DNA of 24,541 bases from a virus (IMGVR_UViG_3300029448_000422:1-24541); one strand, 5' to 3'. Positions 3,366 through 24,397 are shown, counted from the first letter of the stretch. Numbers and translations are program-made. The notes: generated by a model from the letters alone, not told the origin.

Positions 3366-3761
3366 CTAGTCTTGCAGTGCTGCTATCTTTGCTGCCAGTT
3401 CTTCTTCGGACAACTCCGCAGCATCTAACGCTAATGACGTCTGATCGATTCTCTGCAACTTTGGTTGCTCAAACTCTGCAAGTGCTAATGCTAATCTCTC
3501 AATTGTTTCCTGATCTTCAACCTGCATAGCTTTAACTAGCTGTACTTTAAGTATATCAACGGCTGAAGGCAACTCAGTAATAACATCATCCTTAATCTTT
3601 TTAAACTCAGAAGCGGATATTTTCATTGCTTCTCGTAGAGCTTTGTTTCTTCTGCGAGTTTCAGCACCTTTTGCCTGCATTTCTTTTGCTTTCTCAGAGT
3701 CCATAACAGGACGCAATTGTGCAAGTGAATTAGGATGCTTTCCGCAATTTTCGTATCCCAT
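3366..3761 (-). CDS. Possible terminase small subunit
   Basis: A 131-residue protein on the minus strand, with a good ribosome-binding site (AGGAG at 3768-3772 on the minus strand) six bases before its ATG. The N-terminus has a basic helix (ETRRRNKALREAMK), the centre looks all helical, and the C-terminal part (PKLQRIDQT... then an acidic ELSEEELAAKIAALQ helix) resembles small phage proteins annotated as terminase small subunits or DNA-packaging proteins. It is the only minus-strand gene in the first 13.7 kb. Transcription ends at the shared terminator 3304-3340. The family call is tentative; a transcription regulator is the main alternative. Confidence 0.45.
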   Translation of the reverse strand: MGYENCGKHPNSLAQLRPVMDSEKAKEMQAKGAETRRRNKALREAMKISASEFKKIKDDVITELPSAVDILKVQLVKAMQVEDQETIERLALALAEFEQPKLQRIDQTSLALDAAELSEEELAAKIAALQD

Positions 3762-3834
3762 AATAATCTCCTAGTTAAATAATTACTTAAAGGAGACATT
3801 CAAAATTTTTAATAACCCACATCCGGAGATTCCA
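3762..3834. promoter_or_regulatory. Divergent promoter region with inverted AGGAGA motif
   Basis: This 73-base gap separates the minus-strand gene from the plus-strand operon, so both promoters should be here. TCTCCT (3767-3772) and AGGAGA (3791-3796) are inverted copies; each lies after an AT-rich ACT-containing stretch. The plus copy, ACTTAAAGGAGA (3785-3796), resembles the 3' half of the T7 promoter (CACTATAGGGAGA, 9 of 13 matches) and has no start codon at a useful distance, so it is not a simple ribosome-binding site. The minus copy does serve as one. A second site (CCGGAGA, 3823-3829) is the ribosome-binding site of the gene at 3835. Confidence 0.35.
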
Positions 3835-3987
3835 ATGCTGAAAATAAATCCTATTGCAAAGGCGATAGCTTTGAATCGCCGGCGTACTGCTAGTCTTGTT
3901 GTACCTAACAAGAAAAAATATAATCGTAAAAAATCTAAAGAAGTGGCTAACGCCACTTTTTATAGAGATAATAATAAAGAAAGGTAG
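3835..3987 (+). CDS. 50-residue highly basic protein
   Basis: The ATG at 3835 follows CGGAGA by five bases. The product is very basic: MLKINPIAKAIALNRRR, then VVPNKKKYNRKKSK. An NPIA(K/R)A start, an Arg-rich stretch, VVP-KKK and YNRK recur in short proteins of T7-like phages infecting Proteobacteria, as far as I recall, though their function is unknown. It is the first gene of the replication operon, seven bases before the next start. It probably binds nucleic acid or an acidic partner. Confidence 0.7.
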   Translation: MLKINPIAKAIALNRRRTASLVVPNKKKYNRKKSKEVANATFYRDNNKER

Positions 3988-11010: not shown

Positions 11011-13203
11011 ATGGAGACACAATTAAAATATTTAGAGAATAAAATTGTAAAATCTAAAGCGCATATTGCTTGTAGCTTATTAAAGAATGTCTCTTCAGAT
11101 AACTTAAAATCTTATTTAGTATTTACTATGGATACTATACAACAACACTTTACTAGGAATAGTACTCGAGGAAATAAATCATATCAAGGTGAAGCTAACT
11201 TAACGCATTTAAGTATAGCAGTTGGTTCTTTTATATTAGATGAAATTAAATATTCTAATAAAGACCACGCACCTTGGGATTGGTTTAGACTAAGAGCTAT
11301 GATGGGTGATTTATTTATAGAAGCTTTCTATCAAACGCATCAAATTAATATTGGTAAAACTAAAGAAAATAATTTTATACCAGTAGAAAATTTAGATCGA
11401 AGTCTTAAAAGAAGTAGAGCTCATTATATTGTTACACCCGAATTATGGAATTTAATTATTCCTGATAGTAGAAGAGACTTATTACGAGGTACAACTTTTG
11501 AAAAGCCTAAAGATATTGATAGCTTAATTCAAAGCGAAACTTTAAAACCTGTTATTAAAGGCTGGGATTATAGTAGACGTAATGAATTTAATAAGCATAT
11601 TAATAATAATTTTATTAAGAGTATGAATGTACTACAGCAAACTTCTTGGAAAATAAATACAGAAGTAAGAAGTATATTACATATTAATCGTAATAAATTA
11701 TTAAATCAATATAAAGCATTTCCAAAGAAATACAAATCAAAAATTATAGAATTTGATTTAACTATGGCAAGAGCGGATACGATAAAAGAAGAAGCATTCT
11801 ATCAATATGTTGAAGCAGATTATCGTGGTCGTATATATTATACTACGCCGTTCTTAAACTTTCAGGGTAACGATTTAGCTAGAGGACAAATGTTATTTGC
11901 TGAAGGTAAACTTATGACTGACGAAGGATTAAGAAGATTAAAGATACATATTGCTTGTTCTTATAATCAAACTTTTAATAAAGGAAACTTACCTGAGTGG
12001 TTAACAACAGACTATAAACCTTTCCTTGAAAATGAAGGATTGGAAGATATATCTGTAGATAAAATGACATTAGAAGATCGTGAAGCTTGGACCGATAATA
12101 ATATAGATTTTATATTAGATCTAGCTGAAAAGAAAATGATTGATGCTAATGCCGAAAAACCTGTATCATTATTAGCTGCAGCTTTAGAAATTTATAATGC
12201 AACTAAAACTGAAGGACCTTATATTAGTTTCTTACCTATACCAATTGACGGTAGTAATAACGGATGGCAACATCTATCTGCAATGTCAAAAGATAAACAG
12301 GCAGGAGAATTAGTAGGAGTTGTTCCTCAGAAAATACAGAAAGACTTTTATGTACAATGTGCTAAAAGTTTAATAAAGAAAGCGCCTGAATGGTTTGAAG
12401 AACGTCAAATGCCAATGAAGCATATTCGAAAAGGTATTACTAAAAGAGGTTCAATGACTAGAGCTTATAGTGCTGGTGCTTTAAAGATAGCAGAAAACAT
12501 GTATCTTGATTGTCATGTTGAAGGTTATCTCGAAAAATATAATATAACTGAGGACGATTGCTTAATGCTTTCTAGGAAACTAGTTAAAGCAATTGATGAA
12601 GTGTGTGCTGGACCATTACAAACGATGAAGTTTTTACAAAAGATTGCTGAATCAGAAATTGCTTCTGACTATGCAAAGAATAATAGACTGAAATCAATTA
12701 AGTGGACTACACCTTCAGGCTTTCCAGTTATTTACGAATCGTTTACGGAAAACGAATTCAAAGAAAAGGCAACAATTAGTTGTAGCGAAAGAGAAGTAAA
12801 GCCAACAATTCTTAAAGAAGATGGTTCTAAAGAAGAAACTGATACAATAAGAATACAGCATGTTGGTAAAGAGCCTACAGATAAACCAAGAATAAGATCT
12901 TTTATGTCTGGTATCTCACCTAACTTTGTGCATTCTATGGATGCTGCTCATATGGCTAATGTAATTTGTGAATGGGAGGGAGATTTTGGTGCAGTCCATG
13001 ATTCCTTTAGCGTTCATGCATGCGATATAGATAAACTTTTATTATTAATTAAAGATAAGTTTATTAATATGTATAGCTATCCTAATTTCTTTGATGTAAT
13101 TCAAAAGATGATTGTAACTAATCCGGATTTTAATCATGAGCAACCTAAAATAGGCGAACTAAATATTAAGGAGGTACAAAGTAGTGACTACTTCTTCGCG
13201 TAA
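11011..13203 (+). CDS. Single-subunit DNA-dependent RNA polymerase (T7 type)
   Basis: 730 residues against 883 in T7. Catalytic residues align by motif: Asp413 in PIDGSNNGWQHLSAM (T7 Asp537), Lys478 and Tyr486 in TKRGSMTRAY (T7 Lys631 and Tyr639), and His663-Asp664 in VHDSF (T7 His811-Asp812). The DxxGR motif is DYRGR, and NFVHSMDAAHM precedes motif C. The protein ends SDYFFA, like the SDFAFA foot of T7 RNA polymerase that closes the active site, so the C-terminus is complete. It should transcribe phage genes from its own promoters. It lies at the end of the replication operon rather than early as in T7, so something else must transcribe this operon first. Confidence 0.95.
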   Translation: METQLKYLENKIVKSKAHIACSLLKNVSSDNLKSYLVFTMDTIQQHFTRNSTRGNKSYQGEANLTHLSIAVGSFILDEIKYSNKDHAPWDWFRLRAMMGDLFIEAFYQTHQINIGKTKENNFIPVENLDRSLKRSRAHYIVTPELWNLIIPDSRRDLLRGTTFEKPKDIDSLIQSETLKPVIKGWDYSRRNEFNKHINNNFIKSMNVLQQTSWKINTEVRSILHINRNKLLNQYKAFPKKYKSKIIEFDLTMARADTIKEEAFYQYVEADYRGRIYYTTPFLNFQGNDLARGQMLFAEGKLMTDEGLRRLKIHIACSYNQTFNKGNLPEWLTTDYKPFLENEGLEDISVDKMTLEDREAWTDNNIDFILDLAEKKMIDANAEKPVSLLAAALEIYNATKTEGPYISFLPIPIDGSNNGWQHLSAMSKDKQAGELVGVVPQKIQKDFYVQCAKSLIKKAPEWFEERQMPMKHIRKGITKRGSMTRAYSAGALKIAENMYLDCHVEGYLEKYNITEDDCLMLSRKLVKAIDEVCAGPLQTMKFLQKIAESEIASDYAKNNRLKSIKWTTPSGFPVIYESFTENEFKEKATISCSEREVKPTILKEDGSKEETDTIRIQHVGKEPTDKPRIRSFMSGISPNFVHSMDAAHMANVICEWEGDFGAVHDSFSVHACDIDKLLLLIKDKFINMYSYPNFFDVIQKMIVTNPDFNHEQPKIGELNIKEVQSSDYFFA
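13168..13174 (+). promoter_or_regulatory. Ribosome-binding site that sets a GTG start
   Basis: AAGGAGG, the strongest Shine-Dalgarno sequence in the operon, lies inside the end of the RNA polymerase gene, nine bases before the GTG at 13184. It is the reason for choosing GTG over the later ATG codons. Confidence 0.8.
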
Positions 13204-13563: not shown

Positions 13564-13605
13564 AACCCCAAGAGTATCCTAAGATATTCTTGGGGTTATT
13601 TTTTT
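13564..13605. terminator. Bidirectional intrinsic terminator between replication and virion modules
   Basis: Bases 13564-13578 pair with 13583-13597: a 15-bp stem including four G-C pairs in a row, with one G-T wobble and loop CTAA. Seven T follow (13599-13605). On the minus strand the stem is followed by seven T (13559-13565, read in reverse). It ends the plus-strand replication operon and the minus-strand virion operon. The remaining gap, 13606-13718, shows no gene or clear signal. Confidence 0.93.
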
Positions 13606-13718: not shown

Positions 13719-16700
13719 CTAAGGCGTAATATTAACATTCATTGTATCCTCATTTTTAATTTGTGATCTAAGTTCTGCTCTACGTTTTTGTAGTGTATTT
13801 AAAGCAGCATTATTTCTTGCTCTAAGATTTAAACCTTCTGGTCCTATAACTAATGAAAGCAATTCTTTAACCTGTCCCATAGTAAGTTGTTCTGCTTTAA
13901 GATTAATATCAGATTTTTCTATATATCTTTTAATGGCAGCTGATTTTCCTGCAGCATTTAAAGTTTTTCTTTTACTATATGCATCTATAGTTTCGCCTTC
14001 AGCTTTTCTTTCATCACTCATACGAGAAAACATTGTAGTTAAATTACTATAAGATTTACCAGTACCAGAAACTTCTGTAAACAAATGAGCTAATCCCTTG
14101 AATGCTGCACCTGGTTGTAAGCTACTTGCAGCTTGCCAATTTATTGTATCGCTATCATTCATAGCATTAACTTTTGTCATTGTTTCATTATACCAATCAT
14201 CTAATATTGTTTGTGTATAATCGTGATTCATTAGAGATTCTTTATGATGCTTATTTGCTTCAGCTCGGACAGCTGAAAATGATCCTAAGTCTACTATAAA
14301 CGCATCAAAAATAGGAAGCGCAAAAGTATTTGATCCACCTAATCTTTCTGTATCAGATTGGATTCTATTATAAGAACCACCACTTAATGTACGACCAACC
14401 ATATTTCCATCATAACTTTGTACAGGTACGGGTAAAGATAATCCTACAGTTCGACCACCAACCTGATCTTTTCCTTGAACTTTTCTTACAGCTGAAGGAG
14501 ACGTTTTAGTTTTATAAAATTGTACAGTTACTTTTCTTCTTGGATCTTTAAATTCAAATGAACTTTGCTTTACATTTTCTGGATCTGTTTCTTTAGCAGA
14601 CAAGTAAGAAGTAAAACCCATTGCATTTTTAAATGATAAAACATTTTCCGTTAATACAGAAAGTTGTGCATTACTTTTAACAACTTGATTAATCTGTAAA
14701 GTTTCAGGATCAAAGGTTTCATATATTGAATCAACTAATAATGAATGTAAAAAGTTAATTACTTTACCTTGATCAAGACCGTTTTGATTTATCAGTTGTG
14801 TAATTTCACCACCCTGAAATACAGTTGCATCAACATGCTGTTGTAAAGAAACTAAATCCTGACCATATCCCATAGTCATAGGTGATTTTTTTAAAAATCT
14901 TTCTTTATCTTTAATAGCAAACTCTAAAATTTCTCTATAAATTGGTGCTTGATTTTCAGGGATACCACCAATACCTGTAGCTGCATCAACTTTATTTCTC
15001 ATAGTATCTGCCATTGCATCACGCAAATCTTTATACTCATCTAGCTTAGCTGTAATATTACCTATAGCTGGTGTTAAAGTTCCGGATCTTTTTGCAATTG
15101 GTACACTTCCTAATAGCATAGCCATTGTTGCAGGTCCATGTGTTTTACCATCTATCTCTGCAATAATTGAAGACTTATGTATTGTATTTGTTTTACTTGC
15201 ATTATCCCATTTAGCTAAGTCCATAAAGTAATCCGCATATAATATTGCTTCTTCTTTTTCTTCACCTAAAAATGTTTTTAAATCATTACCTAATTCATCT
15301 TTATATTCATCTCTTATTCTTTGTTTAATATCAGCTTTAGCCTGATTAGATTGAGCAGACTCTGGTGCTTTTACAACCTCTCTTAGTTGTAACATTAACT
15401 GTTTACTATTTTCAGTATTAAAATTAGCTGTAGCAGTTAACAATTGATTACCCCATCTAACATATTGTGAATATAAACCACCTTGTGTTAGTGCTTCTTG
15501 ATCAAATATTCTTATACGCTCTTCGGCTGATCTAGAAAATCCCATATCTTTTTTAAATGCTTTTTCATATAGCTTTGTAGATAAAATTTCTTTCCAGTTT
15601 CTTTCAATTTCACCATTTGTATTTGGTTTAAATTGATAAATATTTCCACTACCTGTTAAGAAACGAATTAGCTTATGTGCCTGTGGACTATATACAGTTT
15701 GTTGATCATGTATCCTACCGGTTAATGCTTGTAAAGCAAAAGTTAAATGATTAGCTTTTCCTGAATACTCAGCTGCACCACCAATAACATTTAAAAACTT
15801 TTCTCTTTGTTCTTGTATAATACTATTAGGATTATAATTTTCAGCAAGCTTTTGCAGGCTCTTTGATTTTTCTTCTAGTCCTTGTTCAGCAGCACGCTTA
15901 GCCGCAAAGAATAGCAATCTTTTTTCAGCTTCAGCTTCTTTAAATTTTTCTGTGCCTATTTGAAATATACTTGCATAAGTTTGTTGATTCGGATCTGTGC
16001 TAAGAGAATTTATTATTGCAGATGTACCTAACATAAATACTAACGCTTCTCTACGAGGATCGTTTATAAAGGCTGTCTTGTTTGCATTGATCATTGCTTC
16101 ATCAACAATACTAGTATCACCCATTTTTCCTAGTACAGTAGTTACATTTCTTGTATATGTTTTTGCTTCAGTTTCTTTCTTACCTGTTTCAGTAGGAGCT
16201 AAGTTAGGTTTTACTTCAGGTTGTGCCATAAAACCTTTTGCTTTATTTCTTAATACTTCAATAGCTCTTACACCATTTGGTTGTAAAGTAAAAATTACTT
16301 GACCATCTTGCAAAACAGGTTCGCGATATAATACATCAGGATTTGATTCAGCGTAAACTTCTTTTGCTTGATCTCCTAAAAAAGTAAAAGCTTCAGAGCT
16401 TACTTGATCATAGTCTTGAACATATGAATCCGTATCTAAACCTTTTTGTTCGGCTTGTACTCTTTTCCAATTTCTATAAATATCTCGACCCAACTTTTCA
16501 TTACCTTTTGCTTTAGTAAACTTATAACCTAAAGGTTGAAATGGTTCTATATTACCTTCTGGATCTGTACCTTCTTTAACATCTGCAAATTGATCTACAT
16601 TATTATCAGCTTGAAACATTGATTGTAATAATGATTGTTCAACAGTTAAAGACATAACACGTCCTAACTCTGGATCAATAACCATATTACCATCAGGTGC

Positions 16701-17357
16701 TACAATAGATGCATCAAGTAAATCTTTTTGAAACATTAAAGCCTGTGTGCCTACATTAACAAGTGAACCTTTTTTAATAGGTGCTGTTGGCTGTATGTCA
16801 GAAGTAGCTCTATCTTCAAATGCAGTTTCTGTAAAACCAGTTTCAACTAAAACACTATCATCGCCAGTTTGTTTTGCTAAAGCTAAAGACTCAGGTGTAT
16901 ACCTAATATTTTTTGTTACCTTTGTACCTGCAACTTTTTCTTGAAAAACTTTATTAAAATTTTCACCTCTTTGAAGTGCTTGATAGTATGGCATATTTTT
17001 ATTAACAGCATCAGGATCTAAACTTGTTACACCTAAAGTACTTAAAATAGATGGTACTCGATCTAACTCTCTTTGCTGTGTATCTAAATCTGTTGTTGCA
17101 CCTTCAATTAATGTTTGTGATACATTATCAACTGGGGCGCTTGGTTCTACTGCAATATCTTCATTTATTTCTGGAGCTAATGCTTCACCTGTTACTTCAG
17201 TTCCTAATAAAAAAGGATTATCTTCTGGTTTAGAAGGTAACTCTGTAGGTGTAACTGGTGCAAATAATTGTTCAGTTGGTATATTAGCTGCACTATCTTC
17301 TAAAGGTAATTTTAATTGTGCACCTGGTAATACACTTGGTCCGCTAAATTTAGCCAT
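13719..17357 (-). CDS. Putative virion-associated single-subunit RNA polymerase
   Basis: 1212 residues; the last of three giant minus-strand genes, two bases after its neighbour, with ribosome-binding site GGAGA about six bases before the ATG. The first 100 residues look disordered. The central and C-terminal parts carry RNA-polymerase-like motifs in order: LTGR (545-548) followed by VYSPQ, like the GR...NPQ region of T7; EIDGKTHG (734-741, Asp736), like motif A; KKSPMTMGYG (823-832), with Lys823 eight residues before Tyr831 exactly as T7 Lys631/Tyr639; and LPIFDAFIVD (1014-1023, Asp1018), like motif C HDSF, followed by a T7-like acidic helical end. Motif C has Phe in place of His. Spacing falls between that of T7 and phage N4 virion polymerase. 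If right, it would enter the cell with the DNA. Otherwise it is an internal virion protein of unknown function. Confidence 0.6.
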   Translation of the reverse strand: MAKFSGPSVLPGAQLKLPLEDSAANIPTEQLFAPVTPTELPSKPEDNPFLLGTEVTGEALAPEINEDIAVEPSAPVDNVSQTLIEGATTDLDTQQRELDRVPSILSTLGVTSLDPDAVNKNMPYYQALQRGENFNKVFQEKVAGTKVTKNIRYTPESLALAKQTGDDSVLVETGFTETAFEDRATSDIQPTAPIKKGSLVNVGTQALMFQKDLLDASIVAPDGNMVIDPELGRVMSLTVEQSLLQSMFQADNNVDQFADVKEGTDPEGNIEPFQPLGYKFTKAKGNEKLGRDIYRNWKRVQAEQKGLDTDSYVQDYDQVSSEAFTFLGDQAKEVYAESNPDVLYREPVLQDGQVIFTLQPNGVRAIEVLRNKAKGFMAQPEVKPNLAPTETGKKETEAKTYTRNVTTVLGKMGDTSIVDEAMINANKTAFINDPRREALVFMLGTSAIINSLSTDPNQQTYASIFQIGTEKFKEAEAEKRLLFFAAKRAAEQGLEEKSKSLQKLAENYNPNSIIQEQREKFLNVIGGAAEYSGKANHLTFALQALTGRIHDQQTVYSPQAHKLIRFLTGSGNIYQFKPNTNGEIERNWKEILSTKLYEKAFKKDMGFSRSAEERIRIFDQEALTQGGLYSQYVRWGNQLLTATANFNTENSKQLMLQLREVVKAPESAQSNQAKADIKQRIRDEYKDELGNDLKTFLGEEKEEAILYADYFMDLAKWDNASKTNTIHKSSIIAEIDGKTHGPATMAMLLGSVPIAKRSGTLTPAIGNITAKLDEYKDLRDAMADTMRNKVDAATGIGGIPENQAPIYREILEFAIKDKERFLKKSPMTMGYGQDLVSLQQHVDATVFQGGEITQLINQNGLDQGKVINFLHSLLVDSIYETFDPETLQINQVVKSNAQLSVLTENVLSFKNAMGFTSYLSAKETDPENVKQSSFEFKDPRRKVTVQFYKTKTSPSAVRKVQGKDQVGGRTVGLSLPVPVQSYDGNMVGRTLSGGSYNRIQSDTERLGGSNTFALPIFDAFIVDLGSFSAVRAEANKHHKESLMNHDYTQTILDDWYNETMTKVNAMNDSDTINWQAASSLQPGAAFKGLAHLFTEVSGTGKSYSNLTTMFSRMSDERKAEGETIDAYSKRKTLNAAGKSAAIKRYIEKSDINLKAEQLTMGQVKELLSLVIGPEGLNLRARNNAALNTLQKRRAELRSQIKNEDTMNVNITP

Positions 17358-17359
17358 AA

Positions 17360-20300
17360 TTAATCTCCAAATACGCCACTAGCTATATTCCTATTAAATT
17401 GATTGAAAGGTCCAGTGAATGGTGTAGTTTTTAATACCCTATAAAAACCAGTTTCCGGATCACCATCGACAAATTTTTCAGTAGCACTTATAACTCTTGC
17501 TACGTTTGATAATGAAGCAGCCTCACCTGATACAGTTGTAAATAACCATTCAGCCGAGTTCTTAGATGATGATTCATAGATAGGAAAGAAAAAGTTTAAT
17601 GGTCTTTCAGCTACTCCTAATAATCCTGAAGAACCTAATCCTCTTTGAATTTTTTCCATATCATCTAAGTAAGGTGAAGGCTTACCATACTTTAATAAAT
17701 CTTTTAAATATTGTGAGGCAAATCCTAATGCAATCATAGTTGTCATAACAGCAAAAGCATTATACTTCATTGCAGGTGTACCACGTTTAACATACTCACC
17801 CCACATTCTAGGAATATGGTTTGCTGTAAATGTAGCAATAAAACCTTGGAACTGTGTGAACAAAGCTAAGTGTTGGTTCTGATAAAACAATGGTCTATTA
17901 TAAGTACCAGGTAATGCAATAGCTTCATTAACAAAGTTAGCAGAAGCTTGATGCATCATATCATCAAACTCTTTATTTTCTTCAGCTGTCCATTGTCTAG
18001 TATTAATAGAATTTAATTCAATTATTCTATCAACATTAATACCTAAGTTTCTTAACTGCTCTTCAGCTTCTTGAATTTCATTAGTATATATTACATCTTT
18101 TTGAAATAACGGCATAGTGCTTTCTTGTCTATACGTATTAATCAAATTAACTTTATCCATAACAAAGTCACTAGCAATTGATGCTCTAATACTTCTTGTA
18201 TAATCTGTCCATTGTTGTAGCAAAATAATTCTAAAGAAATTATCTAGTAACCTTCTTGACCCATGCGAATTTTCAGTAGCACCTGTCGTTTGTGCAGCAC
18301 CTACATCCCAATCAAAGTAACCTAGTCTTTTAATATTAGATTGTCTTTGTTCTTTTGCTAATTGTCTTTCAGTTGAAGAAAATCTAGGATCTTTAATTGT
18401 TGCCCAAGCTGCTTGTGCAAATTCTTTACTTGCATTCATAATTGTTTTAGATACTTGACCTGGATTTAAAGCTCTAGTTGTAATTGCTAATTCAACAAAC
18501 GAAGATATAACTGCCATAGGTAAGCCAGCCATAGTTGTCCAGAATAATAAGTTCTTTTGGATCTTACTCATTGTTGTATTATCTATACGCTTATAGTTAC
18601 CTGACTCTGCATCTAAATAATCTTGTAGTTGTGCTGCAATCTTATTTACTTTATCTGCTGATACTCCTTGCTCTAATGCTTGATTAAGTTTTTCATTTAT
18701 CTTTTCATTATTATCACCAAGAAATTCTTGATAAGTAATAAATCTCGAAGCTGACTTTGCAGCATTAGATATATTTAAAAATGCATCGCTTTCCATATAC
18801 TCATCGAATGCAGCATTTTCTGCTAAGCCTAACCTTCTTTTTTTATGTGCGGCTGGTATAAACTTTCCTTTACCTACCTGAAATAAACTATCAGCATCAG
18901 TAACATCACCAGAATCTAGTATCTCTCTAGTTAAATCTTTAGCTGTATTTAAATCCATATTATATTCTTTAACTAATGCTGCTGCAAATCCATTAGGATT
19001 TTTTTCAATAGCAACTTTATTAAATGATTTATATCTTTGTAAATAGTTTTGTAGATAACCTACTTCAAATTTTCTACCGTTATTTTCTCTAGCATTTTTT
19101 TGATCTTGATATAATGTGTTTGATAAGTTTTGTGTATCTTTATACCATTTAGATAACCAGGCTTCATGCTTTTTTAAATCATCAGGTAATGTATCCCACT
19201 TAACTTTTACTTTTTTACCAACCCATGTATTAAACTTTTGTATAATACCTGATAATTCTTTTTGATTAATTGATGTAAACCCTGCAGCTTTTGCAATCTC
19301 TGCAGGCGTTTGCACCATATTACGATACTTACTTAATTGATTATGCTTTTTTTCTTCAAAGTGTTCACCTGAATGTATACGCTGTAAGTTACCACCAAAC
19401 ATACTGGCTAGTTCTCGCATAGCTTGTGCAGATCTTTGAGTTGCTTCATCAAATATAAATCGTGTTGATCCTTTCCATAATACTGGTATACTACCCCACA
19501 TATCTTTTACTTTATCAAAAGTATCTTTTTGTTTAGTATTTTTTCTACCAGCATCAACCTTATCTTTAAACTGAGAAGCAGTTGTTCCTCTTCTTTGTAC
19601 ACCTGATGCTGCCTTAGTATTAATTTCTTTTATATCTTGTATTCTATTTGTTTTTCTTTTTTCTTCATTTGCCATTTCACCTGCAAACGATAACTTATTT
19701 GCATCAGCTTCAGCTTGACCGACTGCAATATTTGCCCAAGCTCCTGCATCATATGCAGCACCAGGAATTGCAAAGGCTTTACCCATAGTTCCACCAGCAA
19801 TTGCAGCGTTTAATAATCTATTTTGTAACTCAACAGCATCAAACTCTTTATCACTACCATAAGTTGCAGCTAAATAACCTGTTAGTTCTTGTCCAACTTC
19901 AGTAGATCCTTCACCAACAAAACCAATTGCACCACGTTTTGCAATAGTTTTTAATAAGTTACGAGCTTTTAATTGTTCTTTTGCAACCTTAGCAGCGTTA
20001 CCTAATAGCTTAGCTGCTTCTAATCTAGTTAGTTTATTAATAGTTGATCTTGCAGCAGCTGCTGAAACATTATTTTTTTTCATAACAGCTTGAACAAGTT
20101 TATTTCTAAAGGTACCGTTAAGTAATGTTCCTTTTGTATTACCTAACAATAACTTCACACCTAGTCGATCTAATAAAGTTTGTGTAACACCTGAAGCAAC
20201 AGCTAGTGTTGCACTTCTATTGTTACCTTCCATCTCATTCCAGGTTTGTCCGGTATATATAGATACAGGTAACGCAAGCGACACACCTTTTGTTACAGGT

Positions 20301-21337
20301 GCTAAAGCACTACCAATCATTGTTGCACCCATATAAGGTAATGATATAGCAACATTTGTTCCTAGGTATTCAAAGAACTCTCCCATACTACTAATGTCCC
20401 ATTCGTTTCCGATAACATTACCTTCATCATCAAGAACAGGTTTTAGTGCATTCATTTTTAAATCTGGTTTCTCAGCAAGGTAAGCTCGTTGTCTTGCTAT
20501 ACCTGCTTCACCAATTTCTTCTAGCCAATTAAAATCAGTTTTTTCACCAATCATTTCAGCCATACCATACATACCTTCAATAGCACCAGTCCAACCTACA
20601 TCAAAGCCTTCACTAAAAGGATGTAATGCTTTGTTATCAATTGAACGATCTTGCCAATCTTGAAGTACAGTATGTGATTGATAATTCTTAGCTTCTTGTT
20701 GTCTTAATGCATAAGCTAATATTGTTTCGCCTGGTTGTCTTGGCGCATTTAATCTAGCTAATTCTTTTTCATTAAGCGCAACCTTTTTAAATTCTTTACC
20801 ATACCAGTTTTCAGCATCAGCTGCATTTTCAATTGCAAGCTTTGCTTTTTCAAATTCATTTAAAGGACGATTATTAAAATGATCATTCTGATAATCTTGC
20901 TTAACAGCTTGTCCCCATTGCCATGCTAATATTTCATCAGGAGTGCTATATTTATTTAAATTTAATATACCATGCCTAGCAACTGTTTCTGTAAAGTCTC
21001 TACCAGAATCATCAGTTAATCTAACTAATTGACGACTACCTGTTGCATCTAGCTTAGGACTTCCATCTTCATTTGTTAAGTAATGTATATTATGAAAACC
21101 AAATTGCTCAGCTAAAGTTTGCATTTGTTTATAAGCTGCGGTACCACCTGGAGTTCCAGGACTAAATCCATCTTCAATAATTTTTAAAGTTTCTGGTGCA
21201 TCTAATCCTTCAATTCTAAGTAGCTGTCCTTTAGTATTTCTTAAAGTATCTCCATCAATAAAAGTATGTCCATTACTATTTGGTATTTCTGTTTGAATAG
21301 GTGCAAACAGTTCTGAAGTAGATTCGACTGTTATCAT
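17360..21337 (-). CDS. Large internal virion (DNA ejection) protein with N-terminal nuclease domain
   Basis: 1325 residues, similar in size to T7 gp16. Residues about 22-130 match the staphylococcal-nuclease fold: FIDGDTL (Asp28, Asp30), then RIEGLDAPE with Arg41, Asp46 and Glu49 in the spacing of S. aureus nuclease Arg35, Asp40 and Glu43, and SGRDF near 111-115. The rest is helical with several hydrophobic stretches (about 327-362, 925-955 and 1190-1215), as expected for a protein that inserts into the host envelope. A ribosome-binding site (AGGAG) lies just before the ATG, overlapping the end of the upstream gene. The proposed role is channel formation during genome entry; the nuclease may act on DNA in the cell or be structural. 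Confidence 0.72.
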   Translation of the reverse strand: MITVESTSELFAPIQTEIPNSNGHTFIDGDTLRNTKGQLLRIEGLDAPETLKIIEDGFSPGTPGGTAAYKQMQTLAEQFGFHNIHYLTNEDGSPKLDATGSRQLVRLTDDSGRDFTETVARHGILNLNKYSTPDEILAWQWGQAVKQDYQNDHFNNRPLNEFEKAKLAIENAADAENWYGKEFKKVALNEKELARLNAPRQPGETILAYALRQQEAKNYQSHTVLQDWQDRSIDNKALHPFSEGFDVGWTGAIEGMYGMAEMIGEKTDFNWLEEIGEAGIARQRAYLAEKPDLKMNALKPVLDDEGNVIGNEWDISSMGEFFEYLGTNVAISLPYMGATMIGSALAPVTKGVSLALPVSIYTGQTWNEMEGNNRSATLAVASGVTQTLLDRLGVKLLLGNTKGTLLNGTFRNKLVQAVMKKNNVSAAAARSTINKLTRLEAAKLLGNAAKVAKEQLKARNLLKTIAKRGAIGFVGEGSTEVGQELTGYLAATYGSDKEFDAVELQNRLLNAAIAGGTMGKAFAIPGAAYDAGAWANIAVGQAEADANKLSFAGEMANEEKRKTNRIQDIKEINTKAASGVQRRGTTASQFKDKVDAGRKNTKQKDTFDKVKDMWGSIPVLWKGSTRFIFDEATQRSAQAMRELASMFGGNLQRIHSGEHFEEKKHNQLSKYRNMVQTPAEIAKAAGFTSINQKELSGIIQKFNTWVGKKVKVKWDTLPDDLKKHEAWLSKWYKDTQNLSNTLYQDQKNARENNGRKFEVGYLQNYLQRYKSFNKVAIEKNPNGFAAALVKEYNMDLNTAKDLTREILDSGDVTDADSLFQVGKGKFIPAAHKKRRLGLAENAAFDEYMESDAFLNISNAAKSASRFITYQEFLGDNNEKINEKLNQALEQGVSADKVNKIAAQLQDYLDAESGNYKRIDNTTMSKIQKNLLFWTTMAGLPMAVISSFVELAITTRALNPGQVSKTIMNASKEFAQAAWATIKDPRFSSTERQLAKEQRQSNIKRLGYFDWDVGAAQTTGATENSHGSRRLLDNFFRIILLQQWTDYTRSIRASIASDFVMDKVNLINTYRQESTMPLFQKDVIYTNEIQEAEEQLRNLGINVDRIIELNSINTRQWTAEENKEFDDMMHQASANFVNEAIALPGTYNRPLFYQNQHLALFTQFQGFIATFTANHIPRMWGEYVKRGTPAMKYNAFAVMTTMIALGFASQYLKDLLKYGKPSPYLDDMEKIQRGLGSSGLLGVAERPLNFFFPIYESSSKNSAEWLFTTVSGEAASLSNVARVISATEKFVDGDPETGFYRVLKTTPFTGPFNQFNRNIASGVFGD

Positions 21338-21346
21338 ATAGTACTC

Positions 21347-24300
21347 CTATTTACTTTGAGCTAATCTTAATTTATTAGCTTCAATTGCTTGTTGTAAATA
21401 ATAACCAAACGGTGTATAACCATCAGGTGTATTTGCAACATACTTTGCTCTGTCAGGATCTTGTAAGAAAGATTGATTTAGTTTACCATAAAATCCTTGC
21501 AATGCTTCCTTTTGTTGTTTAGCGTTATTATTACCTGGCAAAATCATATTTAATACGTCTTGATTCATTGTTTTAAATTTATCATTATTTAATTTATAAA
21601 CTGTGTCACCAATTTTTTCTTCAGTAATACCCATTACACCTGCAATATTTCTCATTTCTAATTGTTCTAAATAAGGAATCAATGTAGTTGCTTGAATATT
21701 TCTTGCAGTTGAATCTTGAATTGCTAACTCATATGCGCTTTGAATTTGACCACCAAGCTGCTGCATATTGTAACCATTTTTCTTAGCCCATAATGCAACA
21801 TTTTGTGCGTCACCTTCAGGTAATATTTTAGTTACATATGTTTTCTTTTTACTACCAAGCTTATCAGTTTTAGTAATTGTTTCATCGTAAGTTGTTCTAT
21901 TTTGTGCAATTATTTTTGAAACAATAGAGGCTTGTGCATTAACTTCTTTTTGATACTCATCAGAAGTTGGAACTAATTTAGCATCATCATGATGTCCTTG
22001 AGGTACTCTAGTTTTACCACCATCATAAGAATAATAACTTATATTTTTACCATCAGGTGTAGTAATATTATATTTTAATGCTTGTCTCTTTTTACCTATT
22101 GAATCATAAAAGAATTTACGTTCACCAGTTCCTCTAGGTATTTGTCCTTTAGGTACAAGCACTGACCAGTCTCCACTTTCTTCATATGCTTTTAATGATT
22201 CAGGTGTATACTTAGTTGCATTTTCTCTAATCCATTTCGTTTTAGCTGCAGACTTTGTATCAACTCTATCTAAGTATGATTTTGCTACATACTTTAAAGA
22301 ACCATTATGACTACCTCCTAGCAGTCTTGAACCTAAATAAATTATCGCAGCTCGCTTAAGTTCTTTTGTATCAAATAAATCACCAAAGAATCCTTTAAGT
22401 GTAAACTCTGCATTTTGTTTATCTTTATTGTTACCTTCTTTACCAGTAGAAATAATTTTTTCTTTAGTTATGTTTGGTTTTTCTTCTACAATTGTTTTAG
22501 ATTTTGAAGTGCTTGTCCAAAGATCCATTAACTTTTTATCATTTTTTTCAGATAAAGTAATTGTTTTTTCTTCTGGCTTATTTTTATTTTTTATTTCATT
22601 AATTTTCTTTTCAATTTTTTCATTAACAGAATCATTACCATCTATCTTTTGGCTTTCTAATTTTGTAATTTCTTTTTGATCATCTGCTGATTGTTGCTCA
22701 GATGTAATACGATCTTGTTTTGCTTTCCATGCTTTATGTGCTTTGTCTTGCATAACTGCCATATTAAATTCATTTATCTGTGCATCATAACGCTCTCTAT
22801 TTCCGCTTGTTGCATATAGTTCTTCAATTTGATTTTTTCTATCTTCAGAAATTCTATTAGAGTTAACCGACTGCGGTTCACCTGTACTCGATATAATAAT
22901 ATCATTAAAGAATGTATCTTTAGTTTCTTCATCATTAGCAAAAGCTTGTTCAGCCTGCTGCACTTTATTTGGTTTACCTATTTGATTTGTCATTTGACCA
23001 GAAAACTGTGGTCGACTTTCATAAGTTTTTGGAAATGCTATTTCAGTTAAGCTACGATCTTCACCAGTATAATCTGCTACTCCTTTAGGTAATTCCCCTG
23101 GAGGTACAGCAATACCATCAAGCTCTGGTATTTCAAGATTTGGATTTCCATAGTCTACATCGTTTCTGTTTTTAGTAACTTCAGTTTCAATAGGCACATT
23201 ATTATTTTGCATTTCTGCTAATGCTTTATTATAAGCTTTCAGTCTAAGAGGACTCATGTTATTAGGATTTTGTCCTTCAAAACCAGGAACTACAATAGTA
23301 GGTATAGCAAACTCATCATCGCTTTGTGGCAAGAAAGGATCATCACCTCTATTTAAATTTCCTTTACCTTCCCAATGTTGTAAGTTCCAAGTAGAAGGAT
23401 CTAATACATGTGGTCCACCATGTGCATAATACACTGGTACATTACCACCCTCATTCATTTTTATATTAAGCAATTTATCATACCAACTTTTTTCTTCTTT
23501 TGGTTTAACTGGTTCTTGATATTTTTCTTCACCAGGAAATGATGTTCCTTCTAACATTGATTTAATCATCATAACTTTATTTGCATTAGTCACAGCTGTT
23601 GGACTTTTAGTATAAGGACCTGCATTATAAAACTGATACATAACATTCATTTCGTTATCAGGTGATTCAATAAAATCTTTTTGAAAACCTTTAGCACCTT
23701 TATTTGCATTAGCAACATAATTATCTTTTAATAATTGTAGGTATTGAGCTGATGCTTCTATATTTGCAATTGGATTATTTTGTACATCTTCAAACTTTTT
23801 AAAAGGAAACCTACCATACTTTTCTATTATATCATCAAAGGCTGGTTTTCTAATTTGTCCTAAACCAAAAGCTTTATTTTTTAAATTCTTATCTCCTTCT
23901 GCCGTAGGATTACCAGAACTTTCAGCGTATAAAACTGCTTTTAAAAAGTTAGGATTAAGATTATAACGGTCAGCCGCTTTATTTATAGTGTCATCAAATT
24001 TATTTATATTTGTAAAGTCAACTGACTCTTGCTTAAAATTTGTTGGCATACGATTTTCTTGTTGAAATAATTTATAAAGGTTTGGTTTTTTCATAGGTAA
24101 ACCAGGTATAACCTTCATACCTCGTTCGGCATATTGCGGCATATCTTCTTGTATTTCTCTTCCATGATCATTCATTTGTTTAATGACTGGCCCATATATA
24201 TCTGTTGCTTCTTTATTAACTACAAACTCACCAGGGGTTAACCAAGCAGGTACTGTATCTGTACCTTTAGGATCTCCAGGATGATCATACATAGGCATAG

Positions 24301-24397
24301 GTATTTGTTGCATAGAAGGTACATTTGCTTCTGTTTCAAATTCAAAGTGCATCATATTACCATGCCTATCTTTTTGAATAAACTTTTTTAAATTCAT
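21347..24397 (-). CDS. Virion protein with lytic transglycosylase domain
   Basis: 1016 residues. Residues about 135-265 are an SLT-type lysozyme-like domain: catalytic Glu159 in LYAESSGNP, AFGLGQI (176-182) and FYNAG (256-260). It would cut peptidoglycan locally during DNA entry, as the transglycosylase of T7 gp16 does. Upstream, residues 45-60 read GTDTVPAWLTPGEFVV, a motif I associate with tail tape-measure proteins of long-tailed phages. The centre is low-complexity and acidic or Lys-rich (about 480-660), probably flexible, and the C-terminal third is helical. No signal peptide. It lies nine bases upstream of the nuclease-domain gene and its start overlaps the preceding stop (TAATG). Confidence 0.8.
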   Translation of the reverse strand: MNLKKFIQKDRHGNMMHFEFETEANVPSMQQIPMPMYDHPGDPKGTDTVPAWLTPGEFVVNKEATDIYGPVIKQMNDHGREIQEDMPQYAERGMKVIPGLPMKKPNLYKLFQQENRMPTNFKQESVDFTNINKFDDTINKAADRYNLNPNFLKAVLYAESSGNPTAEGDKNLKNKAFGLGQIRKPAFDDIIEKYGRFPFKKFEDVQNNPIANIEASAQYLQLLKDNYVANANKGAKGFQKDFIESPDNEMNVMYQFYNAGPYTKSPTAVTNANKVMMIKSMLEGTSFPGEEKYQEPVKPKEEKSWYDKLLNIKMNEGGNVPVYYAHGGPHVLDPSTWNLQHWEGKGNLNRGDDPFLPQSDDEFAIPTIVVPGFEGQNPNNMSPLRLKAYNKALAEMQNNNVPIETEVTKNRNDVDYGNPNLEIPELDGIAVPPGELPKGVADYTGEDRSLTEIAFPKTYESRPQFSGQMTNQIGKPNKVQQAEQAFANDEETKDTFFNDIIISSTGEPQSVNSNRISEDRKNQIEELYATSGNRERYDAQINEFNMAVMQDKAHKAWKAKQDRITSEQQSADDQKEITKLESQKIDGNDSVNEKIEKKINEIKNKNKPEEKTITLSEKNDKKLMDLWTSTSKSKTIVEEKPNITKEKIISTGKEGNNKDKQNAEFTLKGFFGDLFDTKELKRAAIIYLGSRLLGGSHNGSLKYVAKSYLDRVDTKSAAKTKWIRENATKYTPESLKAYEESGDWSVLVPKGQIPRGTGERKFFYDSIGKKRQALKYNITTPDGKNISYYSYDGGKTRVPQGHHDDAKLVPTSDEYQKEVNAQASIVSKIIAQNRTTYDETITKTDKLGSKKKTYVTKILPEGDAQNVALWAKKNGYNMQQLGGQIQSAYELAIQDSTARNIQATTLIPYLEQLEMRNIAGVMGITEEKIGDTVYKLNNDKFKTMNQDVLNMILPGNNNAKQQKEALQGFYGKLNQSFLQDPDRAKYVANTPDGYTPFGYYLQQAIEANKLRLAQSK

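Follow-up and report, generated by a model that had tools for sequence, protein, structure and literature searches.

Organization of the locus

The window analysed here is the whole of a 24.5-kb fragment (24,541 nucleotides) from an uncultured virus (IMGVR_UViG_3300029448_000422:1-24541). A rightward replication module encodes thymidylate synthase, a MazG-like protein, DNA polymerase, an exonuclease, a RusA-like protein, a primase-helicase, dCMP deaminase and, as its last large gene, a T7-type RNA polymerase (11011-13203, plus strand; PF00940, E 3.8e-58; PHROG 414, E 2.4e-100). Three large genes on the minus strand (21347-24397, 17360-21337 and 13719-17357) converge on the latter. The nearest of them, at 13719-17357, encodes the candidate virion RNA polymerase that is the subject of this study; a terminator-like hairpin followed by a T-run (13564-13597, plus strand) lies between the two convergent polymerase genes. 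Contigs of relatives, 54-58 kb in length, have the identical plan, with leftward terminase, portal, capsid and tail genes upstream of the large-protein cassette.

The first large protein of the cassette within the window (21347-24397; 1,016 aa) contains in residues 137-261 an SLT lytic transglycosylase domain (PF01464, E 3.2e-12), which is characteristic of ejected proteins whose task is to breach the cell wall. The second (17360-21337; 1,325 aa) matches PHROG 6958, a virion structural protein (E 5.8e-24); it has relatives in phages tf, JB8, KIT05 and CRP-7, and in its C-terminal half it shows homology to a phage tf protein annotated as a particle protein. Third and last in this run of large late genes is the candidate, which in all three long relatives again comes last, directly after both large proteins. 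By following the SLT-domain protein and the relative of the tf particle protein, the gene does lie with proteins of the ejection type, as the original prediction had it. The neighbourhoods of the second cassette protein in tf, JB8 and KIT05 (L189, L190 and L191) contained no polymerase of the candidate type; there, no other large gene stands between the homologue of that protein and the convergence.

Several minor features of the locus were recorded. A 131-aa gene (3366-3761, minus strand) is reversed within the rightward module and is about 80% identical in all relatives checked; by eye its product resembles a small terminase subunit, while the family libraries gave a weak match only, to a family of unknown function. 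Residues ~25-55 of the 17360-21337 protein look, by eye, like the start of a staphylococcal nuclease (DGDT...LRIEGLDAPE); no nuclease match of this kind was found in Pfam or NCBIfam. A segment reading YTPESL...GD.SVLV..G is shared by the candidate (residues 152-174) and the SLT-domain protein (residues 729-751), with 13 of 23 positions identical, and is conserved in relatives of the SLT-domain protein. It could conceivably be a docking or packaging signal. In some relatives, the convergence zone just past the candidate holds an extra leftward gene or promoter-like element (L098, near 13736, minus strand; G002, 46947-47975, minus strand).

Polymerase motifs in the candidate protein

The candidate reading frame starts with an ATG at 17357 and its stop codon ends at 13719 on the minus strand, giving a protein of 1,212 aa. 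The original prediction, which left out the strand, had described four polymerase-like motifs in the right order in a 1212-residue protein, and its positions and intervals are all correct. The TGR motif spans residues 546-548 (15714-15722), with R548 corresponding to R425 of T7 RNA polymerase and R424 of the N4 mini-virion RNA polymerase (mini-vRNAP). Motif A, EIDGKTHG, occupies residues 734-741 (15135-15158) and contains D736, the counterpart of T7 D537 and N4 D559. Motif B, KKSPMTMGYG, covers residues 823-832 (14862-14891), with K823 matching T7 K631 and Y831 matching T7 Y639 and N4 Y678; the Lys-Tyr spacing is identical to that of T7 RNA polymerase, as predicted. In the comparison with N4, K824 rather than K823 aligns with N4 K670, a one-residue shift inside the motif. 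Motif C, IFDAF, lies at residues 1016-1020 (14298-14312), with D1018 corresponding to T7 D812 and N4 D951. The R-to-D, D-to-K and K-to-D intervals are 188, 87 and 195 residues. A further motif, called pre-C here, had been missed: VQSYDGN at residues 979-985 (14403-14423), whose first six residues (979-984) are the counterpart of T7 VHSQDG, with Q980 in place of H784 and D983 equivalent to D787. All five motifs are on the minus strand.

A family of 22 non-redundant proteins was assembled around the candidate; the first scans used motif-B peptides among others and so favoured motif B. Complete relatives are 1,162-1,478 aa long. Conservation within the family, taken in 12-residue windows, peaks at motif B (LKKSPMTMGYGQ, the same in all 22 proteins), motif A (EIDGKTHGPATM), a helix at residues 868-879, the GR motif (LTGRIHDQQTVY) and motif C (LPIFDAFIVDLG). 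The GR arginine, the motif A aspartate, the motif B lysine and tyrosine and the motif C aspartate are invariant, and in order, across the 22 relatives, with motif A kept as E.DG.THG in 22/22. Judged by this conservation, and by an unforced alignment to the T7 and N4 motifs, the candidate's predicted motifs are not due to chance.

Relationship to known single-subunit RNA polymerases

Direct searches with the candidate gave no match in Pfam, PHROGs, the PDB sequences or 50,697 phage records, and PDB sequences did not match the family profile either. PF00940 was unmatched by the candidate and all 22 relatives, as was PHROG 414 by the candidate. These missing matches are no argument against homology. 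The protein is too divergent from the N4 vRNAP for detection by BLAST, Pfam or PHROGs. When profiles were compared (hhalign), as the original prediction had proposed for the N4 and T7 enzymes, the family aligned with 14 schitovirus vRNAPs at 98.6% (score 147) and with seven T7-type RNA polymerases at 74% (score 55). Controls comprising reversed profiles, single-column and 10-column-block shuffles and both neighbouring cassette families scored 13-36, far below the N4 value; against N4, reversed profiles gave 17-19 and the two kinds of shuffle 16-36, the column-shuffled and reversed profiles together spanning 16-21. Shuffling in 20-column blocks, which leaves single motifs intact and destroys their order, gave 39-67 against N4. 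The T7 alignment pairs R548, D736, K823, Y831, Q980, D983 and D1018 with R425, D537, K631, Y639, H784, D787 and D812, and in an unforced alignment of 38 proteins from all groups the motifs are in register except for the GR motif of the CRP-7 type.

A template-free AlphaFold2 model of residues 151-1165, with the relatives as alignment, reached a pLDDT of 80.8 and a pTM of 0.79. All 50 matches listed by a fold search of the PDB are T7 RNA polymerase, yeast or human mitochondrial RNA polymerase or N4 vRNAP (best E 1.5e-11), and the matches in BFVD are T7-type RNA polymerases and schitovirus vRNAPs. A second structure aligner gave Z 20.8 over 525 residues (5.6 Å) for T7 RNA polymerase and Z 19.8 over 685 residues (7.4 Å) for the N4 mini-vRNAP; these large deviations make domain positions uncertain and leave the fold assignment unaffected. 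A confident model without a polymerase palm was to have counted against the original prediction; the prediction passes this check, and the candidate almost certainly has the single-subunit RNA polymerase fold. In the model, with secondary structure read by eye, D736 ends a strand and D1018 sits in a turn between two strands, which is where motifs A and C should place them. The motif-B stretch is non-helical, with pLDDT under 50 at residues 828-833. Part of motif B sits on a mobile loop in the N4 vRNAP (PMC12633501); the low confidence here is no proof that such a loop would exist in the candidate.

With the N4 vRNAP (gp50; Schitoviridae) the candidate shares the single-subunit fold, the K.P.T...YG form of motif B, the IFD of motif C and an NPQ..K..R sequence after the GR motif. 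Its EIDGKTHG also fits the motif A signature published for vRNAPs, ExDGxxxG (PMC10654107). The two differ in size, the N4 protein having ~3,500 aa and the candidate about a third of that. Reference N4 vRNAPs range from 2,842 to 3,820 aa (PMC10654107), so that the term "compact" in the original prediction is apt. The N4 enzyme has large N-terminal and autoinhibitory C-terminal domains (PMC12633501), for which a chain of only 1,212 aa leaves no room. With T7 RNA polymerase (PF00940) the candidate has in common the fold, the catalytic residues and the Lys-Tyr spacing of motif B. T7-type enzymes, however, are PF00940/PHROG 414 members encoded in the early or middle region, whereas the candidate belongs to neither family and is encoded in the late cassette.

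In a maximum-likelihood tree (unrooted, 547 poorly conserved columns) T7-type enzymes, N4-type enzymes and the candidate family are separate, with support of 94-100. The N4 proteins form a group of their own (support 100) and the candidate family falls outside it; as the three groups have no outside root, the tree does not bear on whether the family is sister to the N4 or to the T7 enzymes. Because the giant chain is absent and the family lies outside the N4 clade, we did not file the candidate as an N4 vRNAP. The candidate family together with gp33 of the Roseobacter phage CRP-7 is a third group beside the T7-type and N4-type enzymes.

Distribution of the candidate family

Each of 14 family records has exactly one candidate polymerase beside one T7-type RNA polymerase; CRP-7 and one relative likewise have one T7-type enzyme each, making 16 records with one each in all. 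A second scan, designed to be free of motif bias, gathered loci through the neighbouring T7-type polymerase gene. This RNAP-anchored set comprised 56 loci with at least 600 bp downstream, overlapping partly with the earlier records, and extended to clades whose T7-type enzyme is only ~42% identical. The candidate was found by profile in 54 of the 56 loci, convergent in every case; of the remaining two, L180 has a divergent copy recognisable by alignment and the other has only 852 bp downstream. In hhalign comparisons, the convergent proteins of the distant clades gave 99.8% with the window family, 98.5% with N4 and 94.3% with the CRP-7 type. The aspartates of motifs A and C, the motif B tyrosine and the pre-C aspartate are retained throughout these clades. 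The motif B lysine, on the other hand, is replaced by arginine in two outlying clades (L180, L185 and L186, and the CRP-7 type). Conservation of the four catalytic residues, whose loss was to have refuted the original prediction, holds without exception in the 22 relatives and persists in the distant clades apart from the lysine in these two. With both catalytic aspartates kept, the Lys-to-Arg change may reflect altered rather than lost catalysis.

The CRP-7 protein, gp33 (L016, 17859-21566, minus strand), is homologous to the candidate via intermediate clades (hhalign 94.3%). Like the candidate gene, its gene is convergent with that of a T7-type RNA polymerase, and the motif A and C aspartates are kept. 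It differs in having arginine for the motif-B lysine, and BLAST with the window protein misses it. A CRP-7-type model built from five close sequences had a pLDDT of 38 and was left unused. CRP-7 gp33 is annotated as a hypothetical protein, and the paper describing the phage names only the T7-type RNA polymerase, ORF30 (PMC6918029).

Promoter-like elements and early transcription

The window and five relatives together contain 18 copies of an 18-bp element, TTAAATGTCYCCTAWAAG, where 1.3 would be expected; the consensus was derived from some of the copies then counted. The element precedes leftward genes, namely those for the large terminase and ribonucleotide reductase and the gene at 3366-3761 (element at 3786-3803, minus strand), and is also found in relatives L095-L107. 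A divergent pair separates the large terminase gene from the rightward genes, and where the rightward side begins divergently, a right-facing copy is followed by a G-run. The element recalls T7-class promoters and most likely serves the T7-type enzyme, although this is a guess.

Hairpins of the N4 style (stem of at least 7, loop of 3 only) showed no enrichment in four genomes, and exact 15-mer repeats were not found. Sigma-70-like sites were no commoner than in shuffled sequences, a comparison that says little in AT-rich DNA. One hairpin at 3941-3958 (AAGTGGC-TAAC-GCCACTT, then a T-run), inside a small ORF ahead of 3994, is absent from G002, G004 and G007 and present in G001.

The gene of the T7-type RNA polymerase comes last on the rightward side, and its first transcription must be the work of a different enzyme, a task that either an injected polymerase or host RNA polymerase could perform. 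Since host-type promoters are possible, the genome alone forces no early role on the candidate.

A putative packaged polymerase

The N4 enzyme is one of three ejection proteins, with gp51 and gp52; it is injected and transcribes the early genes (PMC12633501). Its gene is likewise the last of the ejection cassette gp50-51-52. That the candidate is catalytically active, is packaged and ejected, recognises promoters and transcribes early genes is our inference; packaging, ejection and early transcription are suggested by its position, last in a cassette laid out like N4 gp50-52. The compact polymerase would be made late and stored in the virion among three ejection proteins, would be injected with or ahead of the phage DNA, and would transcribe the earliest phage genes while the T7-type enzyme is not yet made. 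This would be the strategy of N4, carried out by an enzyme roughly one-third as large. We put the probability that the candidate is active, packaged in the virion and used early at about 0.75. The original prediction was right about the enzyme, and plausibly right in its reading of the role.

As a late-operon gene whose product lacks a proven virion signal, it might instead encode an active polymerase made late in the cell, unpackaged and stage-specific, with host RNA polymerase handling the early genes. The presence of TTAAATGTCYCCTAWAAG ahead of late genes, where either polymerase might read it, would accord with this. Such a transcriptase appears unlikely, however, as a T7-type polymerase is already available for middle and late genes, and as the gene closes an ejection-type cassette in all three long relatives, like that of the packaged N4 enzyme. 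The T7 ejection proteins offer a comparison. T7 gp14, gp15 and gp16, too, are three large late proteins that follow one another, and gp16 carries a lytic transglycosylase domain. None of them is a polymerase, and in the candidate cassette the transglycosylase is in a different protein. That the third of the row, gp16, does not polymerise (PMC12633501), and that the motif-B lysine is an arginine in the CRP-7 type and in L180, L185 and L186, could suggest a polymerase-derived ejection protein that no longer polymerises and has become part of the injection channel or a DNA-gripping motor. We regard this as quite improbable: the active-site windows exceed nearly all other regions in conservation, the Asp/Asp/Lys/Tyr set is invariant in 22 relatives, and both aspartates and the tyrosine are kept even in distant clades.

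A packaged enzyme could also act mainly in replication or genome pulling, by making primers or by transcribing, while the early genes are transcribed by others. Transcription has been proposed to help pull the genome in for N4 (PMC12633501). The phage encodes its own primase-helicase, however, and pulling or priming would be compatible with early transcription too, leaving this reading only a slight chance of being correct.

If early use of a packaged enzyme is the correct reading, each of these phages has two polymerases of its own, the first of them injected and the other made inside the cell, and packaged transcription works without the giant protein of N4. The injected enzyme would explain the first expression of the operon encoding the T7-type RNA polymerase. 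To our knowledge, packaged single-subunit RNA polymerases are known only as giant schitovirus proteins, and a literature search of incomplete coverage turned up no description of the present family. Compact versions would have escaped a published survey of IMG/VR for N4 vRNAPs, which dropped all related proteins of less than 2,500 aa on the grounds that most were distant T7-type enzymes (PMC10654107). On balance, we lean toward a compact, virion-carried third polymerase lineage fixed in a large, mostly uncultured group of CRP-7-like marine podoviruses, which would have no need of host RNA polymerase at the start. With this family, the strategy of N4 would reach a separate group of marine phages, and the small form of the enzyme would offer a yardstick for the roles of the extra N4 domains. 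Because CRP-7 has been isolated and its host is in culture, the prediction is open to direct test. The only relative in a bacterial genome collection (L188; NZIO01000029.1) is on a 15.6-kb contig binned as Pelagibacter, a weak hint at a SAR11 host, or else a binning error.
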